Positions 3,474 through 63,815 of a stretch of 64,000 nt of DNA are shown here, one piece after another. The stretch's first letter is position 1. Each line of letters opens with the position of its first letter. Origin of the DNA: Siphonodentalium dalli (taxonomy: Eukaryota; Mollusca; Scaphopoda; Gadilida; Siphonodentaliidae); the NCBI GenBank assembly GCA_032622095.1, contig CP136063.1, positions 86,095,980-86,159,979 on the forward strand, given 5' to 3'. A model generated the notes under the pieces. It worked only from the letters and a program-made list of their open reading frames with translations, was not told where the DNA came from and did not search any database. Both the position numbers and the translations under genes were made by a program.

Positions 3474-3660
3474 AGCGGAAGTGCACGGAGTTATTGACGC
3501 CACCGGTATATACTGTGGGCCAAATTATAAAAATTCATGGTCCTATGTAGGTTTTATAAATGGGTTGCTATAAAAGCTGTAGTGCTACCCCGAATGCGGT
3601 TATTTTGGGACGCGTTAAAGTTGTACTGCGACCCCGACTCCGGTAAAAGCTGTAGTTGGA

Positions 3661-7890: not shown

Positions 7891-8316
7891 TCTGGTCGTT
7901 AAAGCCAAAATGCAAAAGAACAAATTGGTAACAGGGCGATGTTTGGTATAAAACATTAGCAAATGTCCACGTAACAACATATCCAAACTCCGCATTGGGG
8001 AACTTTTATATTCAAGATGGCGACCAGCATGGTTCTGGAAACCACATGTTGTTTTACGTATTAACATAACATGAACATATGTGTATGGAAATGGCGCATT
8101 TACGTTCGCGGTGTATGCAACATGAAAAGTTGAAATAATATGCTGGGTGTAAAACCAAACAACAGCTAGCCATCTCCTAAATGGCTGCCAAAATGGCTAT
8201 CAAAATGACCGGAGCTAATAAAATTTTACAATGGTAGAAACATATTCAACCGAGCTGGTAAATAACACCGAAATATATAACGTCATCCACTTAAAGATAG
8301 AAACGTCATGCACACT

Positions 8317-8708: not shown

Positions 8709-8933
8709 TTAAGCCTTTCGTGACTGGAGCTTCCTCAATGTTTGCGAAAACCCTGTGCCAATGCAATCTCTTATATATGCGAGTCTGCCATTGGGCGCCT
8801 CGCATATATAAGATAATACATTGGCCTAACAATATTGACCTTGACCTTGTAAGCCAGTGCATTCTCTTATAGATGCGAGGCTCCCTATGGGAGACTCATA
8901 TATATAATAGAATGCACTGGCACAGGATCTTAA
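8709..8933. mobile_element. Double-hairpin MITE, copy 2
   Basis: The left flank TGACTGGAGCTTCCTC and AAAACCCTGTGCCAATGC match copy 1 at 4573. Two hairpins built on CTTATATATGCGAG arms follow, around a GGCCTAACAATATTGACC spacer. The right end is cut or decayed after GGCACAGGAT. Confidence 0.7.
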
Positions 8934-11412: not shown

Positions 11413-12150
11413 TTACACGTTATTACGCCCTCTATACACTGGCAAGCGTATTTGCCCGTGGCGTAGGGGAGTGATGGAGTAAATGTGATTAAAACGTACT
11501 CTGTATTTGCGTTCTAGTTTTGTATGTTCTCGGTAATATCGGCCAGCTAACACTATGTGCAATTCGGTGACGCGATTATAGTCTGTTGAATTTAGACCGG
11601 CGAGTATTTCTGAACCGTACAACCCTTTAGGTAAAACTATTGATTCATAAATTTTCTTAGAGCTAATAGGTGTCAAACCACCTGAGTACACGCCACAATT
11701 GGACAACATAAAGTAAACTGATCTGATTTTATCAACAATGGTTTCTACGAAAGAGCTCATCAAGCGGGACTTATTGAGAGGTATCCCCAAATGTGTTACT
11801 TCATCTGTTTCCATTATTTGGCTTTTTCCAAGGTGCCAACATCTTTTCGCTTTAGATGCTTCATTGTCTGTTTCATTAAAGACGATAACGTGTGTTTTCA
11901 TTGGGTTAAAGCGATATCTCCACTTATTACTGTATTGTACACATAAATTACACATCGATTGAAGACCAAGCTTCGTTAAGGAGAATAATGCCATATCATC
12001 AGCATGTGTTACAAAAGAGCAGTTAATGTCGTGCACGCGTAGACCAAATCCGGACTCATCTAGTATGTTTAATAATTCGTCAATGAATAAATTATAGAGA
12101 AAAGGTGATAGTGTGCCTCCATGCCTGGTTCCATGGCAAATATCTATCCA
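11413..12150 (-). pseudogene. Non-LTR retrotransposon reverse transcriptase fragment
   Basis: A continuous 245-codon frame without a proper start (upstream TAA just before 12150). It opens with the RT motif GTRHGGTLSPFLYNLFIDEL, equivalent to the usual G-x-R-QG-x-LSP-L-F-N-I-L block. About 28 residues later comes FVTHADDMALFS, the catalytic Y/F-ADD box with His in place of the aromatic residue. Then come KTHVIVF and THLGIPL, matching the thumb-side KT-V and YLG-like motifs of LINE RTs. The endonuclease, palm N-terminus and C-terminal zinc-finger region are missing, so it is a dead, 5'- and 3'-truncated copy. Assignment is firm at the RT level; the clade is undetermined. Confidence 0.85.
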
Positions 12151-13403
12151 TTAACAATCGGGTGGCGGATGTAACGGAGGATAAGAGGGGCACATCAATC
12201 AAAAGAGCACTGTTCCCTATGTAAATTATTAATTTGTACTGGTGCCAGTCGAGGGCAAGTGTAACGGAGCACCTCTTGACCTATATCCACCGCCCCTATG
12301 AACAATATGGCTTTGAGGCACATATGTCATAAATTCGCGAGTTTTCCAACGCCACACGTGTGTTTATCTGAACATGTCTAATATCCGAAAGTAGTAAAAC
12401 ATTTCGCCCAGCTGCATGAATAGTACACACAGGCAGTGGTATAAAGGTTAACCGTATATCAATGTCGTAGATCTGTGGAGTTCTATGTTTCTTCTATAAC
12501 TCATGCTAATAAACTACGCAGATTTTATATAATTTGTGGAGGTGACAAACATGGGTCATGAGAGTGCGAAATTTGGCACATAGATAGTCCGATAGCGCAC
12601 ACGTGTTCCCAGTTCGAGTTTCAAACCGCTAACTGCACCGGTGTATTTGAATAATCACAATGGGTGCAATGTGTTCACGGAGTCCGACTAATACCTGTCA
12701 GAGAATGTTTAAAGCAACACATAATGTTTGAATAATTTACATCATTACCATTCACACTGTCATGGCGAAGAAAGCAAAAACACACACTTCTGGACTTGAC
12801 CTAGACACATGTTTCCGTCGAAGTAAACCAGCTAGTCAAATATGTTGAGATAATGCTGTTTAGTTCGAAGCCCCGGGTATATATCTTTCTATAACATACT
12901 TTTACGTCCAGATCCAGTGGAGGGATTTTCGTCAATTTGAATCGATTTTACCCTACAAATCAATACATGATGCTACATATAGCAGAAAGAGTACATCTTA
13001 CCGTCATATTGATGTATAATAATCTTACTTGCATGTTCATTTGGGCATATATTATATGCCGCGTAATTAGGAGTAACCTCAGTTTGTTTACATTTAATTC
13101 ACACTGTCACTTCACTAGGACAAATTAGTCCGTGTTCTTGTTATAGGTCATTGTGATCAAAGATATTTATGAACCGATTAGTAATCCGTGTGCAAGGATT
13201 ACAAAATAAATCTGCCATGTCACCTCCCGGGCTCCATATGATTCATCTGAACAAATGAAATAAATTATGAAAGAATAGAGTCAGAACATGGGCGCTCTGA
13301 CACAAGGACGAAATATAAAGTCAGTGCATGGCATTTTACTCTCAACCGAAATGAGCAAGTACACATGTTTTTTTCTTCTTTTCGATATTAACATTAGTAT
13401 TCA
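12151..13403. other. No gene recognised
   Basis: Only short chance open frames. No repeat family matching others in the window was spotted. Confidence 0.4.
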
Positions 13404-41792: not shown

Positions 41793-42503
41793 CTATAAAA
41801 CGTGTAACTGACGACGAAGTAGCACTGTCAGTAAAGAGATTAACCACACTACGTAAAGATGATCACATGGTGTCCTTGCAGAATTATAATCCGTCTCCTG
41901 TTGAGAATCATGTACACCAGTGGTGTGGTACGACGGAACATTGTCTAAAATATCACCAGAATTAGGTGTGAGTCGAAGAACATCCTGGAGAGCTTTATTT
42001 GCAGCTAACGTAAAGTTTTTATCTCCAGTCGTCATGAGATCAAACACACACGAATCGAAGTAGAACTTCACAACTTTCGCTTCGCGGCAGATTTTCTCAG
42101 CTTTCAACTTGCTCATGGAAATCTTACTCTTGTCTAAATTCATGTACTTAGTCCTCTGAGTGGAAAGGAATTCTTGGTGGTCTATTCGCTCCGTTGCCGG
42201 GCAACCGTAGGTACACAGCTCGAGTGGATCTGATTCTTTTGTGCTATTCAGAACATCTTCCGGCATGTTTATGGCGAATGTAAAATAACGTCCAATTTGG
42301 CGCACAGAAATCGTCGTGTCGATGTATTTGATGTAGATTTCCACATGCTTTCCTGGATCCCGCTCCACAAGTTCGACACTTTTGTGTTCACCGTACCAAG
42401 TCTGGCCGTCGTAGAAGTAACCCGGTAGGTAGTCTGTCTGTGCTTGGTACATACGGAAAGTGTTCTTGACACAGTCCTCGTTCTGTTTTATCACAACTGT
42501 CAA
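41793..42503 (-). CDS. RGM: RGM coding exon 3 (C-RGM domain and GPI signal)
   Basis: The acceptor is TTCTTATCTATTTTCAG at 42504-42520. The exon starts LTVVIKQNEDCVKNTF in phase 0. It carries HVEIYIKYIDTTISVRQIGR, FTFAINMPEDVL, LCTYGCP and VKFYFDSCVFDLMTTGD, diagnostic C-RGM blocks. It ends CDHLYVVWLISLLTVLLRR and a few more residues before TAG at 41795-41793. Most of the C-terminal half sits in this one large exon. Confidence 0.94.
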   Translation of the reverse strand: MTVVIKQNEDCVKNTFRMYQAQTDYLPGYFYDGQTWYGEHKSVELVERDPGKHVEIYIKYIDTTISVRQIGRYFTFAINMPEDVLNSTKESDPLELCTYGCPATERIDHQEFLSTQRTKYMNLDKSKISMSKLKAEKICREAKVVKFYFDSCVFDLMTTGDKNFTLAANKALQDVLRLTPNSGDILDNVPSYHTTGVHDSQQETDYNSARTPCDHLYVVWLISLLTVLLRRQLHVL

Positions 42504-45500
42504 CTGAAAATAGATAAGAATGTAGGGATAAGTAAAGGAAAAATCCTAAACGGAGAATACTGTTAGGAATCGTGCAGTGCATGCAGGCAACCTTTTAATT
42601 CAGAAAATTATACTTTAACAAGCGAAAACGATTGGACAGAAAAAGCACAAACCATCAAGTATATAACAACATGCTACCCAGAATCAGAAGTATACTATCT
42701 TTCTACAGGCTGGGCATTAAATGTGAGAGCAAAAACCGCCCAGTAAAGATCATATTAAAATCTAAAGCTGCAACTGACACGATGATCAAAGAAGCCACGA
42801 CCCTTAAAACAAGCAGAAATAATATGCTGACGTGTGGTATTTTTCTCATACATTCATTTTGACAAGCGCTGAATTTCTTCACAACATGATTATACGAGAA
42901 TCATTTCAATACTTCGAAAACATGGACATTATTTCATCGTCGAGATTTGTTTAAACTTAAAATAACGAAATTCTAGATGAAAAACGAAATGGGGTCATAA
43001 ACGGGTCATTCTAGAGTCCTAGTGGATCGTGCTTTATTTACACGAAGCTAACAAGAATGCGAAATAAATAGCCGGGGTTTGATCGCCGCCGCTTCTTTGT
43101 TCGAGCTAGTTTGTATTCAATTTCCCAAATAACAGCTCCTCTTCACACGGCACTGGGCTTTATGTTACTAAAAGCAGTACATCTGTGGCCGAAATATATT
43201 TCCGCTCTCCATGCAGCGAGCAAATTGCCTTCCTCAGCGGGATATACGCTGTTGCCAATTTCAATTTAGGTTTCAAATAATATTTATCCACCATTACTGG
43301 CCTCGCACTATCTTCAATGGTTCCCACACCTTTGCCGCAACCCAGTGTAGCTCGCTATCCGTGAGTCTCGGTCGTTAAGGGCTCGTGAAATTTAATGGTT
43401 GAAACAAGACGGTGCTTAAATTTGAGCGTCTGATATTATCCCGAAATAGCTATAGGTTCGGCCTCGTGTGCATGGTCTCGCGTCGTCCAGTGTTGTAACA
43501 TTAAAAGCATTGAATGCCAGTTGAAAATGTCATTACATCTAATGGTTTAATTAAAACATATTATTAATATTAGTACCAATTTACAATGCTAAGGGCTCGG
43601 GGCACAAATCTAAAGACGACTTTGCAACGCCCCTCTCTATTGATGTTTGCTTGGTCTGAATAAACAGCATGAGTATAGCGCGTTTCTGAATTTCCGAAAT
43701 AGGAACGACAATATTCAGTTCAAGGTAACCCTGACCCTTTTAATTAGAAAAGCTACCGAAAGGCGGGACAACAAACGAAACCACAAACACAAATACAGAG
43801 ATCCAAATACAATCCCTTTAACCATTTCTATACTAAATACACATTGACGAGTACTTCCCTTAGGGAATGATAAGATGATAAGTTCAACAAACGATTGTTG
43901 AACTTATTATCCAAACATTCCCCACCAATGGGTATGAATCATTCCGCTCTTGTATTATTTTGTTTTTGTCTGCCGTATGATTTTATTTCCTGAACACACC
44001 TCCATATGAATAATAGACTGTTCCAGTGTATACTTTTATAACTGAATCCATTTAGCATAGAAAGGGTTAAACAACAAATTCGTGCTGTATACATCAAGGC
44101 TCCATTTAGCCGTTTCTAACATGTAAATACAGTAATGCCCAAAGTAATTGACCACTTAACCAGAGCAGCTTTCCGATGAATGGCAACAAGCCATATTTCC
44201 GACTAAATCCTGAAAAATTACCCATAATTCTGCTGTGGTTAAGTGGTCAATTACTTTGGGCATTACTGTATGCGTGAAACAGCGGATATATAGGTCTGTG
44301 CAGTATACATGCGCATATTTGCCGTCATTCTTCACATCAGATACCACTATTGCCCCCAGGCTACGATGTAGATCGCTATGTCGTAACATTCTCCCCAAAA
44401 CTAGGCCGGACACGTGTGAGCTTATAACACATTACATCGAATATTAAGATCGAGTATATAAAGTGGATGAACCCGCATTCTTCGTTTTTTCTTAATTAAA
44501 CCATTTAAGCAGGATTTTCTGCGTGACTGAATTCGAGGTCATTTATTAAGGGTATATGATAATGAACACTGCATATAATGCAGGAGTACAAAGCTGAACA
44601 CAACAATACATTTGTCAAATGGTTGCAGCATGGAAAAAAATCCAGAATGGTCTGTTCGAATATAAAGATGAACTTGGGGGGATGCATGGTGGGTCTTCTT
44701 TGCTATTTGTCAAATTAAAAACGAGGTTTTCTTTTGGTATTCAGATGTATGGAGGCATGGAATCGGTATGAGTGTTCGTTGCTTCAAATGTGCTTGCTTC
44801 AGTGAGCGTGACAAATTCGTATTTTTCTTATCTAAATGGCACATTTAGATGTCAATAAAATACAAAAATACATGTAGGTAATATATATCTTATAATTTTG
44901 AACTCATGAAGCAACAGATATAGCCGATCAGTTGTGAAATGGATTTAGGGGACATTTCACAGCACCGTCAGAGTTATGGGGCATGTATATCCTTGATTTA
45001 CAAAAGTCAAAAGATAAAAACGATAGTAAAGATATTGTTCAACGCGGGACAGAGACCTCGAACTGCTACCATAAGATTTGTAGTTTCAACCATTAACTGG
45101 CCATTCTAAAGAGCTTAATATATTTGGACAAACATCGTACCATATTGGCGATGAAGTTTCCTGGCATACCTCCTACCCTCAGTAAATCAAATTATGACGG
45201 CTTGAGCAAGCTAAGCTGTGTATGTAGTAAACTGCTCCCAGGTGCGCGGAGGAATGTTGGCTGTGTTCGATTGAGAGCCGGGACTGGGAGAGCAGAGTAG
45301 GGCCGATTTTCATTCAGAATAAATTTGTTCCACACCTGCACTTCTTGACACCAGTTATGTGGGCGGAAGCAGCCTCCTGTTAAAACGTGTCCGAACTGCC
45401 AGAATCTCCATGTGAAATCTTGTTTACGGAAAGACCATAGCTACTTTTGTTTATATTTAATCTACATGCAATTGGCACTTGATGTGTGGCATGAAGCATA

Positions 45501-48500
45501 TGTGTGCTGATACAAATATAAATTAACCCTTTATATATTGAATGGTAGATTTATTATTCATTGGGAGGGGTGTTAAGGGGATAAAAGCAGACGACAGAAA
45601 AATAGTGCAGAAGGAGTCCTATTTATTGAGGGAAATGTTCAGATAATAAGTTCAACAAACGCTCTATTTGTTGAACTTATTTTCTGAACATTTCCTATGC
45701 ATGATGCTTTAGTACAGAAAGGGTTAACCCTTGTTAAATTTGTAGTTTTGGTAACAAGATTTAAGACCTTAAGACCTATGAAATGCATCTTCGGTTCGTC
45801 TTTTTCCAGCAAGTAAGGTAATGCCCTAAGTAATCGACTCCATAACCACAGCAGAATTATGGGTAACTTTTCAGGATTTAGTCGGAAATATCGCTTGTTG
45901 CTATTCATCTGAAAGCTCTCCATTTACATGACATTTCCCATTCCATGCACAGTGGAACAGAGTGGTTCTTTTAACTAACTTTCATAGATTCTACACATAT
46001 TATGAGCCTTGAAGCACGTCAAAGCTCGCCCCAGAAAACGACATTGAACGACAAAACTGTGCAGATCAAATGCTACAAGAAAAATTCCAATATTTAGGTC
46101 TGATATAGTGTTAAATCTACCTGAAATTCGACCTTGGTATATATGTGTTACACTATTCTAAAATTAGTAAGAGTGTTTAAGATATATTACATGTTATTTT
46201 GATAAAAATGATACCAGATTATGTTAACATGAATTACTACAATGTAACCTGGGCATGTAGCTGTCACCTCAATAAACTGACATTTTGTCTTTTCCCTTCA
46301 CACTTTGAAACAGAGTTGTTTGGGCCAAAGTTAGGATGAATGTGACGAAAAGAGGAATAGCCAAACTCAGTTCAATTCTTAAATGGATTCATGTTCAATG
46401 TCACATGATTCCTCAGTTCAATGATTCAATCCCTATAATGGATTCATGTTCAATATCACATGATTTTTGTTTAACTCTGTCTTTACTAAATACTCATTGA
46501 CGAGTAATTCCCATAAGAAATGTTCAGATAATAAGTTACACAAACGGCTGGATGTATTAACTAAACATTCCCCATATATGAACAAGAATCATCCTGTACT
46601 TGTATTATATGTCGTCTGCTTATATTTCATGAACATCTCTCCAGATGAATAATAGACTATTCCAATGTATACTTTGATAACTGATGGGAGATTCCATTTA
46701 ATAAATAATGGGTTAAATACTCACTTTGCTTGTAGCGGTGGCACCTCCAGTGGACGTCACCATATCGTTTGTCACTTGGACTGTTAAGTGTTCATTGTTG
46801 ATCAGAGGCCAAGCCCCTTTGACTCTGCAAGTTTGGAACTCATTGTTGAAAGTCCGCAAATGAGGGTCTCCAAACAGACCACAATGTCGGTAAACCTTCC
46901 TACCGTGGTAGGCACAGAGAGAACTTGGTGGAGGTTTCATTGGAATGCCTTTTGGAACAACATGAACACTACCAGTGTGATTACAGCTAAATTGTTTCAT
47001 CTGGTTTCTAATCCCGATTTTAACACTGTTGTAACGAATATCGCCATGGCAACCACGTTGTTTGCTCTTGACGCACTTCATGTATGTCCTCAACGTAACG
47101 CACTGTGGTTGGTTTGCAGAAATATCCTTTGGTAGTTCTGAATTGAGCATCTGTTGTCCCATTCTATCACGGATGTTGTTGTATTCCACCCAACACTGGT
47201 CGATGCCACAGGGCGATGCTGAAATAAGATAGGAAACATGTAAAACCCACTGTTGAATAGCATACCTTACCGTGTCGCTGCTTAAAACTAAAGAGTGAAC
47301 CTGTATATATATAACGACACCCCATGCCCACAAGGTATGGTAAATGTATAACCCACACCCCATTCTCACAAGATACTGATATATAGGGCGCATGTATAAA
47401 CCCTCATTCTCACATGTGGTAAATGTATAACCCACACCACATTATCTCAAGATACTGATATATAGGGCACATGTATAACCCCCATGCTCACAAGGTATGG
47501 TAAATGTATCCACACCCCATTCTCACAAGATACTGATATGTAGGGCACATGTATAACCCCCCATTCTCACAAGCTGTGGTAAATATATAATACACACCTC
47601 ATTCTCACAAGATACTGAGATATAGGGTACATGTATAAATATACTGAGATATAGGGTGTGTATATATATAACCCCCACCCATGCTCACAAGATAATGATA
47701 TATAGGGTGCATGTATAACCCCACCCATTACCACAATATACTGATATATAGGGTACATGTGTATTATATATATAAACCCCAACCCCATTCCAACAAGATA
47801 CTGATATATAGGGTAAATGTATAACCCCCACCCATTCTCACCTAGTAAAGTAACACTGGCTATATATATCATAATGATGATGACACCAAAGGTAATGTGG
47901 GTCATTAGCTATTTATTTGTAGATTGGTGATTTAATATATATTCCTTCAAAATATTACTGGTGGGTATTACAAAAATGTGTCGTTTGGTTGTGGTTTACT
48001 GTAGAACTGGACACATACCTCACTAGAAATCTATTGTTTACAAATTTGGATATATTTTGCTTCAGAGTATTAAGACATTGAACATAGAAATAGTGAAGAT
48101 TGGTTTAAAAAAAATCAGGAATTTTGACTATTTTGCCGCGACTTTAGCACTGCATTGAGAACTCTGTTTTCTGTTGTTGAAGTTAATAACAAGTGTATTT
48201 TGGTCACTCTCGAATGAGGCATTGGTTTATATATTGATGCAATGCTAAAATTGTTTTGGAAAGTTTGGTAGAACATGGTACTTTATGTTTATAAGTAAAT
48301 ACAGTGAGTACTTTCGCACGGTATCACACCGATAATTGTCGATGATCTGTGCGATTTAGTGACGTGTTCAAGAGATAGTTGTATGGTTATTTGGGTGACA
48401 CGATGAATGGTCAAGCCTTAAGTTTATAAAGGGCAGCAGCAATGAATTTGGAGAGTCAAACAACCTGCCAAGTGAAAGCAAAAGCGAAGAAAATAACCCG

Positions 48501-50960: not shown

Positions 50961-50968
50961 TTATAGTG
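50961..50968 (+). repeat. 8-bp target-site duplication, left
   Basis: TTATAGTG lies directly outside the left end of the 6.3-kb palindromic element and is repeated exactly at 57283-57290. Flanking bases differ (A before and G after here, G before and C after on the right), so the match is 8 bp and no longer. Confidence 0.8.
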
Positions 50969-50978
50969 GGGTGTGACT

Positions 50979-51053
50979 AATTACCGCCCGGGGACCGCCC
51001 GGGACCGCCCGGGGACCGCCCGGGACCGCCCGGGGCCGCCCGGGCGGCCCAAC
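50979..51053 (+). repeat. ACCGCCCGGG decamer cluster at the left end
   Basis: Six to seven 10-11-bp units of ACCGCCCGGG(G), mirrored at about 57198-57268. The same decamer starts every 180-bp monomer in one to four copies. Confidence 0.9.
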
Positions 51054-51329
51054 GAGCCCGTGGACACAATATCTCGACGGTATAACGTAGCGACATGCCA
51101 CCTGAGGGCAACATAGAAAAATTTACTCGCTCGCTCGTCTCCGGCCGGTCATATTAACCCCACAAATGCCGATATTGGCTAAAAGAGCCTGGGTGATTAC
51201 TGGTGTCTTCGTGTGTGTTCAGACAGATTATTTTGGTGATTCTCGGTAGTGCAATAAGTGCAATACACCTGAGTGTTAATTCCATGTATTGACTCGTTGA
51301 CGCGTCCACGGCCGATGTTATTAACCCCT

Positions 51330-54300
51330 CAAATTCCGGTAAAATAGTGTATAAACAAAAGAACCTTGGAACCGCCCGGGACCGCCCGGGCGGCCCCATG
51401 GGCCCGTGGACACTATATCTCGACGTTATAACATAGCGACATACCCCACGAGGTCAACATACAAAATGTTACTCCCTCGCTCGACCCCGGCCGGCGTTAT
51501 TAACCCCTCAAAATCCGATAAAATGGTAAATAGACAAAAAGAACATTAGGACCGCCCGGGACCGCCCGGGTGGCCCCACGTGCCCGTGGACACAATACTC
51601 CATGAGGTCAACCTAGAAAATGTTACTCGCTCGCTCGACCCCGGCCTGTGTTATTAACCCCCCAAAATCCAACAAAATGGTTTATAAACAAAAATAACAT
51701 TGGGACCGCCCGGGAGGCCCCATGGGCCCGTGGACACTAAATCTCGACGTTATAACGTAGCGACATACCCCACGAGGTCAACCTACAAAATGGTACTCGC
51801 TCGCTCGACCCCGGCCGGTGTTATTAACCCCTCAAAATCCGATAAAATGGTAAATAGACAAAAAGAACATTAGGACCGCCCGGGACCGCCCGGGTGGCCC
51901 AACGTGCCCGTGGACACAATATATCGACGTTATAACGTAGCTATATACCCCACGAGGAAAACCTATAAAATGTTACTCGCTCGCTCGACCCCGGCCGGTG
52001 TTATTAACCCCTCAAAATCCGATAAAATGGTATATAAACAATAAGACCATTGGGACCGCCCGGGAACGCCCGGGAGGCCCCATGGGCCCATGGACACTAT
52101 ATCTCGACGTTATAACGTAGCGACATACCCCACGAGGTCAACCTACAAAATGGTACTCGCTCGCTCGACTCCGGCCGGTGTTATTAACCCCTCAACATCC
52201 GATAAAATGGTATATAAACAAAAAGAACATTGAGACCGCCCGGGACCGCCCGGGAGGCCCCATGGGCCCGTGGACACTATATATCGACGTTATAACGTAG
52301 CGACATACCCCATGAGGTCAACCTAGAAAATGTTACTCGCTCGCTCGACCCCGGCCGGTGTTATTAACCCCTCAAAATCCGATAAAATGGTATATAAACA
52401 ATAAGAACATTGGGACCGCCCGGGACCGCCCGGGAGGCCCCATGGGCCCGCGGACACTATATATCGACGTTATAACGTAGCGACATACCCCACGAGGTCA
52501 ACCTACAAAATGGTACTCGCTCGCTCGACTCCGGCCGGTGTTATTAACCCCTCAACATCCGATAAAATGGTATATAAACAAAAAGCACATTGGGACCGCC
52601 CGGGACCGCCCGGGAGGCCCCATGGGCCCGTGGACACTATATCTCGACGTTATAACGTAGCGACATACCCCATGAGGTCAAAATAGAAAATGTTACTCGC
52701 TCGCTCGACCCCGGCCGGTGTTATTAACCCCTCAAAATCCGATAAAATGGTATATAAACAATAAGAACATTGGGACCCGCCCGGGAGGCCCCATGGGCCC
52801 GTGGACACTATATCTCGACGTTATAACGTAGCGACATACCCCACGAGGTCAACCTACAAAATGGTACTCGCTCGCTCGACTCCGGCCGGTGTTATTAACC
52901 CCTCAACATCCGATAAAATGGTATATAAACAAAAAGAACATTGGGACCGCCCGGGACCGCCCGGGACCGCCCGGAGGCCCCATGGGCCCGTGGACACTAT
53001 ATCTCGACGTTATAACGTAGCGACATACCCCACGAGGTCAACCTACAAAATGGTACTCGCTCGCTCGACTCCGGCCGGTGTTATTAACCCCTCAAAATCC
53101 GATAAAATGGTATATAAACAAAAAGTACATTGGGACCGCCCGGGACCGCCCGGGAGGCCCCATGGGCCCGTGGACACTATATCTCGACGTTATAACGTGG
53201 CGACATACCCCACGAGGTCAACCTAGAAAATGGTACTCGCTCGCTCGACCCCGGCCGGTGTTATTAACCCCTCAACATCCGATAAAATGGTATATAAACA
53301 AAAATAACATTGGGACCGCCCGGGACCGCCCGGGACCGCCCGGGAGGCCCCATGGGCTCGTGGACACTATATCTCGACGTTATAACGTAGCGACATACCC
53401 CATGAGGTCAACCTAGAAAATGGTACTCGCTCGCTCGACCCCGGCCGGTGTTATTAACCCCTCAAAATCCGATAAAATGGTAAATAGACAAAAAGAACAT
53501 TGGGACCGCCCGGGTGGCCCCACGTGCCCGTGGACACAATATCTCGACGTTATAACGTAGCGACATACCCCACGAGGACAACCTATAAAATGTTACTCGC
53601 TCGCTCGACTCCGGTCGGTGTTATTAACCCCTCAAAATCCGATAAAATGGTATATAAACAAAAAGAACATTGGGACCGCCCGAAACCGCCCGGGAGGCCC
53701 CATGGGCCCGTGGACACTATATCTCGACGTTATAACGTAGCGACATACTCCACGAGGTCAACCTACAAAATGGTACTCGCTCGCTCGACTCCGGCCGGTG
53801 TTATTAACCCCTCAACATCCGATAAAATGGTATATAAACAAAAAGAACATTGAGACCGCCCGGGACCGCCCGGGAGGCCCCATGGGCCCGTGGACACTAT
53901 ATATCGACGTTATAACGTAGCGACATACCCCATGAGGTCAACCTAGAAAATGTTACTCGCTCGCTCGACCCCGGCCGGTGTTATTAACCCCTCAAAATCC
54001 GATAAAATGGTATATAAACAATAAGAACATTGGGACCGCCCGGGACCGCCCGGGAGGCCCCATGGGCCCGTGGACACTATATCTCGACGTTATAACGTAG
54101 CGACATACCCCACGAGGTCAACCTACAAAATGTTACTCGCTCGCTCGAATCCGGCCGGTGTTATTAACCCCTCAACATCCGATAAAATGGTATATAAACA
54201 AAAAGAACATTGGGACCGCCCGGGACCGCCCGGGACCGCCCGGGACCTCCCGGGAGGCCCCATGGGCCCGTGGACACTATATCTCGACGTTATAACGTAG

Positions 54301-54356
54301 CGACATACCCCATGAGGTCAACCTAGAAAATGTTACTCGCTCGCTCGACCCCGGCT
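51330..54356 (+). repeat. ~180-bp satellite array, direct arm (about 17 monomers)
   Basis: Each monomer contains, in order: ACCGCCCGGG decamers; GGCCCCATGGGCCCGTGGAC; a CTCGACGTTATAACGTAGCG block whose ACGTTATAACGT core is a perfect palindrome; CATACCCCACGAGGTCAACC; CTCGCTCGCTCGAC; CCGGCCGGTGTTATTAACCC; and GATAAAATGGTATATAAAC. The period is exactly 180 bp through most of 51840-54240, with changes of about 10 bp from decamer gain or loss. Confidence 0.95.
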
Positions 54357-56136
54357 GGTCCCAATGTTCTTTTTGTCTATATACCATTTTGTCGGATTTT
54401 GAGGGGTTAATAACACCGGCCGGGGTCGAGCGAGCGAGTATCATTTTCTAGTTGGGGTATGTCGCTATGTTATAACGTCGAGATATTGTGTCCACGGGCA
54501 CGTGGGGCCACCCGGGCGGTCCCGGGCGGTCCCAATGTTCTTTTTGTCTATATACCATTTTGTCGGATTTTGAGGGGTTAATAACACCGGCCGGGGTCGA
54601 GCGAGCGAGTAACATTTTCTAGGTTGACCTCATGGGGTATGTCGCTACGTTATAACGTCGAGATATTGTTTCCACGGGCACGTGGGGCCACCCGGGCGGT
54701 CCCGGGCGTCCTAATGTTCTTTTTGTCTATTTACCATTTTATCGGATTTTGAGGGGTTAATAACGCCGGCCGGGGTCGAGCGAGGGAGTAACATTTTGTA
54801 GGTTGACCTCGTGGGGTATGTCGCTATGTTATAACGTCGAGATATAGTGTCCACGGGCCCATGGTGCCTCCCGGGCGGTTTCGGGCGGTCCCAATGTTCT
54901 TTTTGTTTATATACCATTTTATCGGATTTTGAGTGGTTAATAACACCGGCCGGAGTCGAGCGAGCGAGTAACATTTTGTAGGTTGACCTCGTGGGGTATG
55001 TCGCTACGTTATAACGTCGAGATATTGTGTCCACGGGCACGTGGGGCCACCCGGGCGGTCCCGGGCGGTCCCAATGTTATTTTTGTTTATAAACCATTTT
55101 GTTGGATTTTGAGGGGTTAATAACAACGGCCGGGGTCGAGCGAGCGAGTAAAATTTTCTAGGTTGACCTCATGGGGTATCTCGCTACGATATAACGTCGA
55201 GATATTGTGTCCACGGACACGTGGGGCCACCCGGGCGGTCCCGGGCGGTCCCAATGTTCTTTTTGTCTATATACCATTTTGTCGGATTTTGAGGGGTTAA
55301 TAACACCGGCCGGGGTCGAGCGAGCGAGTATCATTTTCTAGTTGGGGTATGTCGCTATGTTATAACGTCGAGATATTGTGTCCACGGGCACGTGGGGCCA
55401 CCCGGGCGGTCCCGGGCGGTCCCAATGTTCTTTTTGTCTATATACCATTTTGTCGGATTTTGAGGGGTTAATAACACCGGCCGGGGTCGAGCGAGCGAGT
55501 AACATTTTCTAGGTTGACCTCATGGGGTATGTCGCTACGTTATAACGTCGAGATATTGTTTCCACGGGCACGTGGGGCCACCCGGGCGGTCCCGGGCGTC
55601 CTAATGTTCTTTTTGTCTATTTACCATTTTATCGGATTTTGAGGGGTTAATAACGCCGGCCGGGGTCGAGCGAGGGAGTAACATTTTGTAGGTTGACCTC
55701 GTGGGGTATGTCGCTATGTTATAACGTCGAGATATAGTGTCCACGGGCCCATGGTGCCTCCCGGGCGGTTTCGGGCGGTCCCAATGTTCTTTTTGTTTAT
55801 ATACCATTTTATCGGATTTTGAGTGGTTAATAACACCGGCCGGAGTCGAGCGAGCGAGTAACATTTTGTAGGTTGACCTCGTGGGGTATGTCGCTACGTT
55901 ATAACGTCGAGATATTGTGTCCACGGGCACGTGGGGCCACCCGGGCGGTCCCGGGCGGTCCCAATGTTATTTTTGTTTATAAACCATTTTGTTGGATTTT
56001 GAGGGGTTAATAACAACGGCCGGGGTCGAGCGAGCGAGTAAAATTTTCTAGGTTGACCTCATGGGGTATCTCGCTACGATATAACGTCGAGATATTGTGT
56101 CCACGGACACGTGGGGCCACCCGGGCGGTCCCGGGC
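54357..56136. repeat. 890-bp higher-order duplication inside the inverted arm
   Basis: 54357-55246 and 55247-56136 appear identical by eye, including unit-specific variants such as the short TCATTTTCTAGTTGGGG unit, a CGAGGGAGTAAC change and a CCATGGTGCC change. Identity extends about 60 bp into the next unit before GGGGTC becomes GGAGTC. This is a five-monomer block duplicated recently, or an assembly duplication. Confidence 0.85.
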
Positions 56137-56945
56137 GGTCCCAATGTTCTTTTTGTCTATATACCATTTTGTCGGATTTTGAGGGGTTAATAACACCGGC
56201 CGGAGTCGAGCGAGCGAGCAACATTTTGTAGGTTGACCTCGTGGGGTATGTCGCTATGTTATAACGTCGAGATATAGTGTCCACGGGCCCATGGTGCCTC
56301 CCGGGCGGTTTCGGGCGGTCCCAATGTTCTTTTTGTTTATATACCATTTTATCGGATTTTGAGGGGTTAATAACACCGGCCGGAGTCGAGCGAGCGAGTA
56401 ACATTTTGTAGGTTGACCTCGTGGGGTATGTCGCTACGTTATAACGTCGAGATATTGTGTCCACGGGCACGTGGGGCCACCCGGGCGGTCCCGGGCGGTC
56501 CCAGGCGGTCCCAATGTTATTTTTGTTTATAAACCATTTTGTTGGATTTTGAGGGGTTAATAACACCGGCCGGGGTCGAGCGAGCGAGTAACATTTTCTA
56601 GGTTGACATCATGGGGTATGTCGCTACGTTATAACTTTGAGATATTGTGTCCACGTGCACGTGGGGCCACCCGGGCGGTCCCGGGCGGTCCCGGGCGGTC
56701 CCAATGTACTTTTTGTCTATATACCATTTTGTCGGATTTTGAGGGGTTAATAACGGCGGCCGGGGTCGAGCGAGGGAGTAACATTTTGTAGGTTGACCTC
56801 GTGGGGTATGTCGCTATGTTATAACGTCGAGATATAGTGTCCACGGGCCTATGGGGCCGCCCGGGCGGTCCCGGGCGGTTCCAAGGTTCTTTTGTTTATA
56901 CACTATTTTACCGGAATTTGAGGGGTTAATAACATCGGCCGTGGA
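54357..56945 (-). repeat. ~178-bp satellite array, inverted arm (about 14 monomers)
   Basis: Reverse complement of the left-arm monomer. The switch occurs within CCCCGGCTGGTCCCAATG near 54357: a left-arm CCGGCCGG block is cut and joined to the decamer side of an inverted unit. Some monomers carry a deletion (TCATTTTCTAGTTGGGGTAT at 54440 and 55330). Confidence 0.95.
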
Positions 56946-57282
56946 CGCGTCAACGAGTCAATACATGGAATTAACACTCAGGTGTATTGCACTTATTGCA
57001 CAACCGAGAATCACCAAAATAATCTGTCTGAACACACACGAAGACACCAGTAATCACCCAGGCTCTTTTAGCCAATATCGGCATTTGTGGGGTTAATATG
57101 ACCGGCCGGAGACGAGCGAGCGAGTAAATTTTTCTATGTTGCCCTCAGGTGGCATGTCGCGACGTTATACCGTCGAGATATTGTGTCCACGGGCTCGTTG
57201 GGCCGCCCGGGCGGTCCCGGGCGGTCCCCGGGCGGTCCCCGGGCGGTCCCGGGCGGTCCCCGGGCGGTAATTAGTCACACCG

Positions 57283-57290
57283 TTATAGTG
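57283..57290 (+). repeat. 8-bp target-site duplication, right
   Basis: TTATAGTG, identical to 50961-50968. Confidence 0.8.
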
Positions 57291-57429: not shown

Positions 57430-57637
57430 TTAACCCTTTACCCAACAGAACGGCCCTGTGCCAATGCATTCTCTTATATATGCGAGTCGACCATAGGTCG
57501 CCTCGCATATATAAGAGAATGCATTGGCTTAACACATTAAAAATTATTAAAAAAATTTAGGCCAATGCATTCTCTTATATATGCGAGGCGACCTATGGTC
57601 GACTCGCATATATAAGAGAATGCATTGGCACAGGGCA
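57430..57637. mobile_element. Double-hairpin MITE, best-preserved copy
   Basis: Starts TTAACCCTTTACCC. From GCCAATGCATTCTCTTATAT the first ~69-bp hairpin ends GAATGCATTGGC near 57528. A ~40-bp AT-rich spacer follows, then a second ~69-bp hairpin that is the exact reverse complement of the first. The unit can fold as two hairpins or as one long stem. The right TTAA end is decayed (GGCACAGGGCATAACTG). Confidence 0.85.
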
Positions 57638-58750
57638 TAACTGTAACCATCACAATGTGGTCAATGAGCCGGTTCCAATGATATCCATATTTGTATGGTT
57701 TTATTGAGACAGACCCAAGATAATTTAGGCTGTTGCAGCTTTATTTGGCCGTTTTTGGCCGGTTTGTTGGGTTAATATTGTAAACGAGTGATTATAGTAC
57801 CTCTGTTGTTTGTTCGTATATGTAATAAGTTCAACCCATCGAGTAAGCGAACGACCAAATAGATGTAAACACAAATTTACAAAAGTTAAGAACCGAATAT
57901 TCAACGACTGAATAATAAATATAATAGAAAATGTGAATCCACCAGGTGTGTGATGTCACTGATGTGAAGGATTAGATAGACACGTAGAACATTCTCATTG
58001 TCAGACATGTTAGTTAGATGCATGGGGAATTTTAATGCCATTGCCCAATAAAGTTGACATGCATCGTAGACTATAGAGCTATGATTTTAAATTTAAAAAA
58101 AAAGAAGTAATTTATTCTTCCTATTATCGGGGAATCGGGAGTCACTCACCTATCATGAAGTCTTTCCATTCTACATGAGCCGTTTTCAGTGTGTATGGAT
58201 TTGATAAATTGAACAGGTATTCTCATATTTACAACTGATTACCCTCTGCTATTAGCTTACTCCAACAAAATAATAATAAATTATTTAGCCGAAGAACGAC
58301 ATTTATAAGTTATCCACATTAACCATAATTTGATTGCTATGTGTAGTCAATCAGTCAAATCATCAGCGATTTTGGCACTCTGGGCATATTAACTGCGTTG
58401 GTATAATCGACACACCCAGAATGGTCGACCAAGGTCAAGACACGCGGAGCCAAACGGAGTGGGCACGCCTCGTAATTAAACCCAAGCATTCTGAAAATCA
58501 AATCTCATTCTGATTGTTTCTCTCGTCTGTCCATTCTCATACTTCCCACTTCCAAAATTCCAATAGTCATCGCATTTGGTGAATAACTCAATTCGTAAAT
58601 TTTTGTCATGTTCGCTTATTATTTCCTAAATCGTTTTATCTTCAACTCAGACTCTGGCGACTCGCCTATTTTTCGTGTTATCTTATATATATATATATAC
58701 CAGTATATACGGGCATCTGGCTGCTACAACCTCCTTATCGTTTTCTCGAC
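57638..58750. other. No gene recognised
   Basis: AT-rich and non-coding as far as seen. Confidence 0.4.
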
Positions 58751-63230: not shown

Positions 63231-63555
63231 GCAAATATACATGTATATACATGTACCGAATTCCCGTACCGCCCAAACATGCGCACCGGTGATGCGCGCC
63301 AGTGATGCGTCCGGTCTTAACCAGGATTTCGACCGAGGCTATATTATGGAGGTGTAAAAATTATGTTTGTTTATTGTATTTGGTCGTTAGACTTGAGCTA
63401 ATATTGACACTTCCCGTTTTCAAATTCCCAACAGTCTTGCTCGCAGTGTGTCGTTTAACGACGAAGCTGCCGATGTTGTTCACTAAACGTTATAGACCTT
63501 TTTTTATATAGAGCTGCACGATGAAGGGGTCACTCTCACCAAAAGAAAAAAAAAT

Positions 63556-63815
63556 GTGCTGAAGGGTACACATGTTTTGATAATGCGCTGAAGGGTACAC
63601 ATGTTTTGATAATGCGCTGAAAGGTACACATGTTTTGATAATGCGCTGAAGGGTACACATGTTTTGATAATGCGCTGAAGGGTACACATGTTTTGATAAT
63701 GCGCTGAAGGGTACACAGGTTTTGATAATGTGCTGAAGGGTACACAGGTTTTGAAAATGTGCTGAAGGGTACACAGGTTTTGAAAATGTGCTGAAGGGTA
63801 CACATGTTTTGAAAT
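63556..63815. repeat. 29-bp minisatellite, about nine units
   Basis: The unit TGCTGAAGGGTACACATG plus TTTTGATAATG, nine times with few variants (CACATG/CACAGG, GATAAT/GAAAAT). As 29 is not a multiple of three, all three minus-strand frames read the same peptide in rotation. No spacers, so not a CRISPR. Confidence 0.95.

Follow-up and report, generated by a model that had tools for sequence, protein, structure and literature searches.

A 6314-bp palindrome in the genome of the scaphopod Siphonodentalium dalli is very probably a non-autonomous foldback Mutator-like element (MULE), one of a family that would move by means of a source element with PHD, OTU, and MULE domains and whose arms-only copies probably arose separately. 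It occupies positions 50969 to 57282 of the 64-kb stretch analyzed here (the window; C3:86095980-86159979, where C denotes a contig), and it is best read as such an element and not as a hAT, P, or Galileo transposon. The mobile-element family to which it belongs is real and numerous, and the 98 to 99% identity of its ends makes it appear fairly recent.

Architecture and genomic copies of the palindrome

The palindrome is flanked on both sides by a perfect 8-bp repeat, TTATAGTG, at 50961 to 50968 and 57283 to 57290. Elsewhere in the window this octamer occurs once on the plus strand (10629) and twice on the minus strand (21321 and 57399). Both ends align with each other as an ungapped inverted repeat of 599 bp with 94% identity, and each consists, from the outside to the inside, of a 16-bp tip, GC-rich repeats of 10 and 21 bp, an end domain, and an array with a 180-bp period. 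The outermost base is not inverted, being G at both 50969 and 57282, and the inverted tip is therefore GGTGTGACTAATTACC (50970 to 50985 on the plus strand and 57266 to 57281 on the minus strand). The GC-rich repeats span 50983 to 51044 on the left (ACCGCCCGGGG; plus strand) and 57206 to 57268 on the right (minus strand). They are followed inward by end domains with approximate inner borders at 51045 to 51372 (plus strand; diverged satellite-like units and extra unique sequence) and 56891 to 57205 (minus strand). The satellite arms of ~180-bp units extend from 51373 to 54355 (plus strand) and from 54356 to 56890 (minus strand), and the periodic arrays run from 51595 to 54235 (14.7 copies) and from 54350 to 56941 (14.4 copies). 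The arms meet head-on without a unique spacer, the orientation switching near 54356, and no bases are shared at the junction (54355 to 54356). Open frames pass through the 180-bp units, as a period of 180 permits. The initial annotation, made from the letters alone, had described inverted ends with two opposed satellite arms and a perfect 8-bp repeat at the outer borders, and both descriptions hold.

No further copy of the tip or of the 180-bp unit was found in the window. Across the genome (2.227 Gb in 9 contigs), the exact 16-bp tip occurs at 848 places, 420 on the plus strand and 428 on the minus strand, compared with 2 places for its reversed control, a count that implies several hundred copies of the element. 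The first 100 tips listed all lie on contig 1, and 68 of them face each other in 34 pairs less than 20 kb apart, with spacings of 209 to 18,197 bp (median, 3,936 bp), and the non-facing neighbors include two back-to-back and four same-facing pairs. A search of IMG/VR found no relatives.

We examined both flanks of 26 copies (16 + 10; individual copies carry L numbers) for target-site duplications. The 8-bp duplication is perfect in 18 of them and carries a single mismatch in two others (L009 and L013/14); L025 is counted as perfect from its outer tip pair, the automatic pairing having used an inner tip. The 18 perfect duplications represent 17 different sequences once reverse complements are merged, and two copies that share flanks (L029/30 and L054/55) may be one insertion within a duplicated repeat. 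Further copies with different 8-bp flanks, for which the initial annotation had proposed a search, therefore exist, and its view of the palindrome as a Foldback-type non-autonomous DNA transposon with a true 8-bp duplication is borne out. When the flanks were joined, a clear empty paralogous site was found for 1 of the 26 copies (L018) and a weak one (71%) for L052/53. L018 lies in an interspersed repeat that also occurs uninterrupted at five other loci and in the window (GGTTCCAA within 57666 to 57686). For the window copy itself, no paralogous empty site was found in the assembly, its flank matching only itself.

An alignment of 17 C-ends and 17 G-ends over ~420 bp shows that the two ends of the element differ consistently at a single base. 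The outermost base is C at one end and G at the opposite end in 17 of 17 copies, and this is the sole fixed difference; at alignment position 229, only the majority base differs (G in 13 and T in 4 at one end, T in 11 and G in 6 at the other). Identity is 98.5% among C-ends, 98.9% among G-ends, and 98.4% between them. In the canonical orientation, with the C-end first, the window element lies on the minus strand: its C-end base is at 57282 (C when read on that strand), and its G-end base is at 50969. The base outside GGTGTGAC is always G (47) or C (30) in 77 tips from the loci examined, some places being counted twice, and it is therefore part of the element, leaving a duplication of 8 bp. A duplication of 9 bp was considered and is ruled out, as the ninth base is the element's fixed C or G.

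The satellite units vary as much within a copy as between copies. The 411 units compared, from 17 copies, average 86% identity irrespective of whether they are paired within or between copies or arms (0.870, 0.864, 0.862, and 0.861), and the best-matching unit sits in another copy for 313 of the 411. We infer from these comparisons that the unit variants would be older than the copies and common to both arms. The exact unit pattern occurs at 2449 genomic places. No free satellite was found among the 100 of these that were listed (contig 1, to 104.7 Mb): at 92 of them, an outward-pointing tip in the matching orientation lies no more than 3.9 kb away, and the remaining 8 form one locus facing an array that ends at the tip C1:35080423, apparently one damaged element. 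The suggestion of the initial annotation that the element may seed a satellite finds no support in this partial sample.

Several copies have unusual structures. L015 carries same-facing tips 2.2 kb apart (1320 to 1338 and 3543 to 3561) with identical 14 outer bases, perhaps because one end was duplicated locally. In L025, a tip within the element (8228 to 8246) is followed by satellite, as in a nested or rearranged copy. L032/L033 (C1:18.53M) and L039/L040 (C1:43.16M) are smaller, more diverged members without a duplication whose host flanks are shared in inverted orientation; both are probably parts of a larger repeat. We considered a chromosomal inversion between the two loci and rejected it, as their swapped-looking flanks are explained by the inverted sharing of flanks in a duplicated larger repeat.

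Long copies and the transposase

The longer transposase-encoding copy that the initial annotation had suggested looking for was found on contig 1. Its exact tips, C1:120936969 and C1:120955150, lie 18.2 kb apart and enclose transposase (C1:120942144-120943298), OTU protease-domain (C1:120947759), and PHD-finger pieces. The translation of its transposase region (L059) is 385 amino acids (aa) long and matches the Pfam MULE model at 27.2 bits (cut-off, 27.6), Transposase_mut at 18.5 bits (E value of 0.001; cut-off, 21), and IS256 at 26.3 bits (E value of 3.5e-6; cut-off, 150). It shares with a relative (L060) the positions D62, D140, C161/H164 (C-x2-H), W253, and E259, whose roles we assume by analogy. 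In a composite query of four frames, the frame that ends in L023 reaches ~402 to 407 aa at other places, and the frames of L023 have no Pfam match though the transposase end is present there.

The transposase recurs with 99 to 100% identity over its length at no fewer than four places, the query included. It is free of stops at C1:120942144 (the query), C4:99487025, and C9:48937931 and has one stop at C3:263130191. The OTU frame is found at at least seven places with at least 98% identity, one of them with a stop. On contigs 3 and 4, one listed tip stands beside the transposase and OTU pieces. In distant relatives, for example at C8:69.47M (1051 aa) and C6:179.22M (1277 aa), OTU and transposase homologs share one open frame, as indicated by frames of equal length in the same phase. 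The gene order seems to read PHD, OTU, and MULE, presumably joined by splicing, and the long copy is likely the autonomous source of the family.

In a second long copy, J (L013+L014, C2:38.31-38.33M), the arms are separated by ~9 kb that contain an OTU domain (Pfam E value of 2.4e-6) and a PHD finger (1.5e-6). Single frames score 28.6 bits for PHD and 28.5 bits for OTU; whole-frame scans give PHD 20.5 and 23.2 bits, below the cut-off of 24, and OTU 23.5 bits against a cut-off of 23.3. In copy J, the conserved frame that comes first (11925 to 12407) may not code for protein: four TAA occur in many of its close relatives and none in some diverged ones.

By structure and by enzyme, the family fits two known classes. 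Long inverted ends of tandem repeats with little or no middle place it in the Foldback-type structural class. Its membership in the Mutator (MULE) superfamily follows from long terminal inverted repeats, from an 8-bp duplication, and from a MULE/IS256-type DDE transposase between the ends, the last assigned by homology rather than by cut-off. MULE duplications on record measure 8 to 11 bp in the survey text available (PMC6446971), and those of Muta1 measure 8 or 9 bp as given in the accessible part of its report (PMC5225508). A genome-wide search with PF10551 scored 150 of 813 candidates; the family's score lies below every match listed, so its absence there is uninformative. The frames scanned in L013, L014, L023, and L059, which cover part of the gene, contain no match to FLYWCH, the mark of Phantom, and no THAP/P-type or hAT transposase was detected in the scanned frames of the long copies, which were read in part.

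Origin of the arms-only copies and competing explanations

The arms-only copies, of which the window element is one, differ at the point where their arms meet. The 13 arms-only copies compared (12 + L052/53) have 13 different arm-arm junctions, and because all 13 differ, these copies probably arose independently, time and again, as long copies lost their middle. Between 0 and 5 bp are shared at the junction in 11 of the 12 copies measured, L026 being complex. L028, also arms-only, was left out of this count because its right tip falls outside the fetched stretch, as were the copies with a middle (L032/33, L039/40, L019, L021, L023, L024, L025, and J). L019, L021, L023, L024, and L025 each retain different pieces of a common middle, and arm lengths vary widely among copies.

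We propose that the MULE transposase would act on the tips of every copy in trans and that the copies would have moved by cut-and-paste. By analogy with Galileo, the 180-bp units may be arrays of secondary transposase-binding sites. The coding middle would have been lost between the inverted arms, copy by copy, through interrupted gap repair or strand slippage requiring little homology, and the arms-only copies would not have spread from one small founder. A more far-reaching version, which we regard as possible and put forward tentatively, is that the family is a new MULE lineage whose transposase protein joins a PHD finger to a deubiquitinase-like OTU domain and whose foldback ends are satellite-sized repeats, in which each small copy is born separately when a long copy collapses at transposition, the terminal C or G marks left and right, and the interior is homogenized by exchange. 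If so, the satellite arms would be machinery for the repeated birth of non-autonomous elements.

Several observations weigh against reading the family as one of separately collapsed copies with a MULE source. The 8-bp match fails in strict register in 6 of the 26 copies (L019, L020, L021, L027, L032/33, and L039/40), three of which (L020, L021, and L027) keep a 7- to 8-bp duplication at a one-base shift. The copies compared are mostly the best tip matches and not a random sample, and different junctions could stem from later changes at the palindrome center. Copy J has tips, OTU, and PHD, but of its 12 frames scanned, 11 gave no match to a transposase. Of the long copy on contig 1, 1251 bases were read (L059), a stretch that shows neither its duplication nor its exon structure. 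Every family match of the transposase itself falls below the curated cut-off, and the MULE cut-off is exceeded only by the 35%-identical relative L060, narrowly, at 27.9 bits. A PDB search matched the transposase to no solved structure.

The most serious competing account, which we consider rather unlikely, holds that the arms-only copies descend from one or a few small, spacer-bearing lineages whose centers were trimmed later, since long palindromes are unstable. Palindrome centers are known to undergo trimming after they form, all 13 junctions fall between the arms, and 0 to 5 shared bp are compatible with either early collapse or late trimming. L032/33 and L039/40 also have one small middle in common (97%), but these two share their host flanks as well and could be a single insertion that was duplicated as part of a larger repeat. 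Moreover, the widely differing arms and the different parts of a common middle held by longer copies point to repeated loss from a long parent.

Alternatively, a foldback element from a different class could carry the OTU-MULE gene as cargo or as a nested insertion. Pack-MULEs capture genes, the nearly intact gene is present at only ~4 to 7 places (lower bounds), and copy J has OTU without a transposase match. However, the order tip, transposase, OTU, tip fits the contig-1 copy and, as far as one listed tip, the contig-3 and contig-4 copies; the 8-bp duplication suits a MULE, and OTU stays linked to the transposase in diverged relatives. We therefore regard cargo as improbable and retain the foldback MULE reading.

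From the 8-bp duplication, the initial annotation had pointed to hAT or P. Such duplications are typical of both, and the terminal bases of Ac do not match each other, as here. The long copy instead carries a Mutator-type transposase: the enzyme between the tips matches MULE, Mutator, and IS256 models and no hAT or P model, and 8 bp lies within the recorded MULE range. A hAT or P/Galileo affiliation is thus very improbable, and we rejected it on account of this enzyme. A KDZ/Zisupton affiliation was considered and provisionally rejected: KDZ transposases occur at 20 genomic places, and the two of these that lie on contig 1 both fall outside the listed tip pairs, the tips of other contigs being hardly listed. 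The KDZ/Zisupton-type transposase fragments at these places have exons apparently several kilobases apart. Ginger1, considered on account of OTU and PHD, has the wrong duplication length (4 bp versus 8 bp here). Elsewhere on contig 1, three MULE-domain frames ~5.08 kb apart (C1:214712637, 214717712, and 214722793) form a tandem that belongs to a different MULE; tips of the present family lie ~4 kb away.

That the palindrome is an assembly artefact, whether through chimeric joining or through collapse or expansion of a repeat, is hardly credible: in its right arm a 957-bp block (54357 to 55313) recurs identically 890 bp further on (55247 to 56203), which may reflect either recent duplication or expansion during assembly, but long ungapped matches between the arms are 90 to 95% complementary and not identical, the palindrome therefore not being a copied-strand artefact, and the copies checked have perfect duplications (18 of 26) and, for L018, an empty paralogous site. 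The number of units in the assembled arms may be inaccurate.

Known relatives and the surrounding window

Both foldback MULEs, such as Tm1, and foldbacks with satellite arms, such as Tetris, have been described before. The initial annotation had called the element possibly new, which is right for the family itself and wrong for its kind, given these close precedents; the combination of features is new. The OTU-MULE source, the one-base asymmetry, and the repeated separate collapse look like additions to what is known.

Tetris, a Drosophila virilis foldback, resembles the family in its long inverted ends, outer flanking domain, and ~220-bp tandem array, a likeness drawn from its architecture as described in the available text (PMC4079207). 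In that text, its duplications measure 8 to 10 bp, and its units are 87% alike in complete elements, compared with a mean of 86% here (PMC4079207). Tetris is represented by three copies of complete structure and by large satellite arrays outside elements, and no transposase was identified for it (PMC4079207), whereas the present family counts its tips in the hundreds, includes a relative that carries a transposase, and shows no free array among the places sampled.

Tm1, a Meloidogyne Mutator/Foldback element, is alike in having foldback ends of tandem repeats, a MULE transposase in a rare long copy, asymmetric non-inverted outermost motifs, and duplications of 8 to 10 bp, according to the sections available (PMC3169594). 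The same sections describe a repeat unit of ~14 bp, in contrast to 180 bp here, an outer motif of 7 bp instead of one base, duplications mostly of 9 bp rather than 8 bp, and a Phantom-type protein with a FLYWCH finger in place of PHD and OTU (PMC3169594).

Galileo, of the P superfamily, also has long, internally repetitive ends, which were shown to contain secondary transposase-binding sites, but it encodes a P-type transposase with a THAP domain and not a MULE; as of 2013, binding to Foldback and Phantom tandem repeats was still untested, according to the excerpt consulted (PMC3688188). Rehavkus, compared by its description in the accessible survey text, is MULE related, with a PHD finger, a minisatellite near one end, and invertebrate hosts, and its duplications are 9 bp long, in contrast to 8 bp here (PMC6446971). 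Ginger1 proteins carry OTU, and one family also carries PHD, but the accessible text gives them an integrase-type transposase and 4-bp CCGG/CCGT duplications (PMC2836005). The same text reports OTU in Ginger1 and Helitrons and Ulp1 in Mutator (PMC2836005). The word "OTU" is absent from the text of the MULE survey (PMC6446971), and no report of an OTU-bearing MULE was found by title or abstract in the literature searched, which excludes Repbase and most subscription journals.

The Drosophila Foldback element FB/NOF likewise has inverted ends of nested short tandem repeats and differs in its 9-bp duplications and its 10-, 20-, and 31-bp repeats.

A single chromosome-scale genome here contains hundreds of tips, intermediates with partial middles, and copies with open transposase frames. 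This range of copies opens to test how foldback arms grow, how non-autonomous elements are born, and why OTU-like proteases travel with transposases. The terminal-base asymmetry offers a handle on how a transposase might distinguish nearly identical ends.

The element lies upstream of a repulsive guidance molecule (RGM) gene, whose exons (RGM_N and RGM_C) occupy 41796 to 47441 on the minus strand; the nearest RGM-domain open frame (46716 to 47441) ends ~3.5 kb from the element. A 79/160-bp tandem array (47319 to 47722) overlaps the upstream end of the RGM-containing open frame. On the other side of the element, the interspersed repeat at 57454 to 57765, into a member of which L018 is inserted, starts with two near-perfect short palindromes arranged in inverted orientation. 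It has at least six other genomic relatives among the matches listed and a weaker one within the window at 8751 to 8926. The window also contains a reverse transcriptase fragment on the minus strand (11413 to 12147; RVT_1, 2.8e-12) and a minisatellite of nine 29-bp copies with 96% matches (63553 to 63812).

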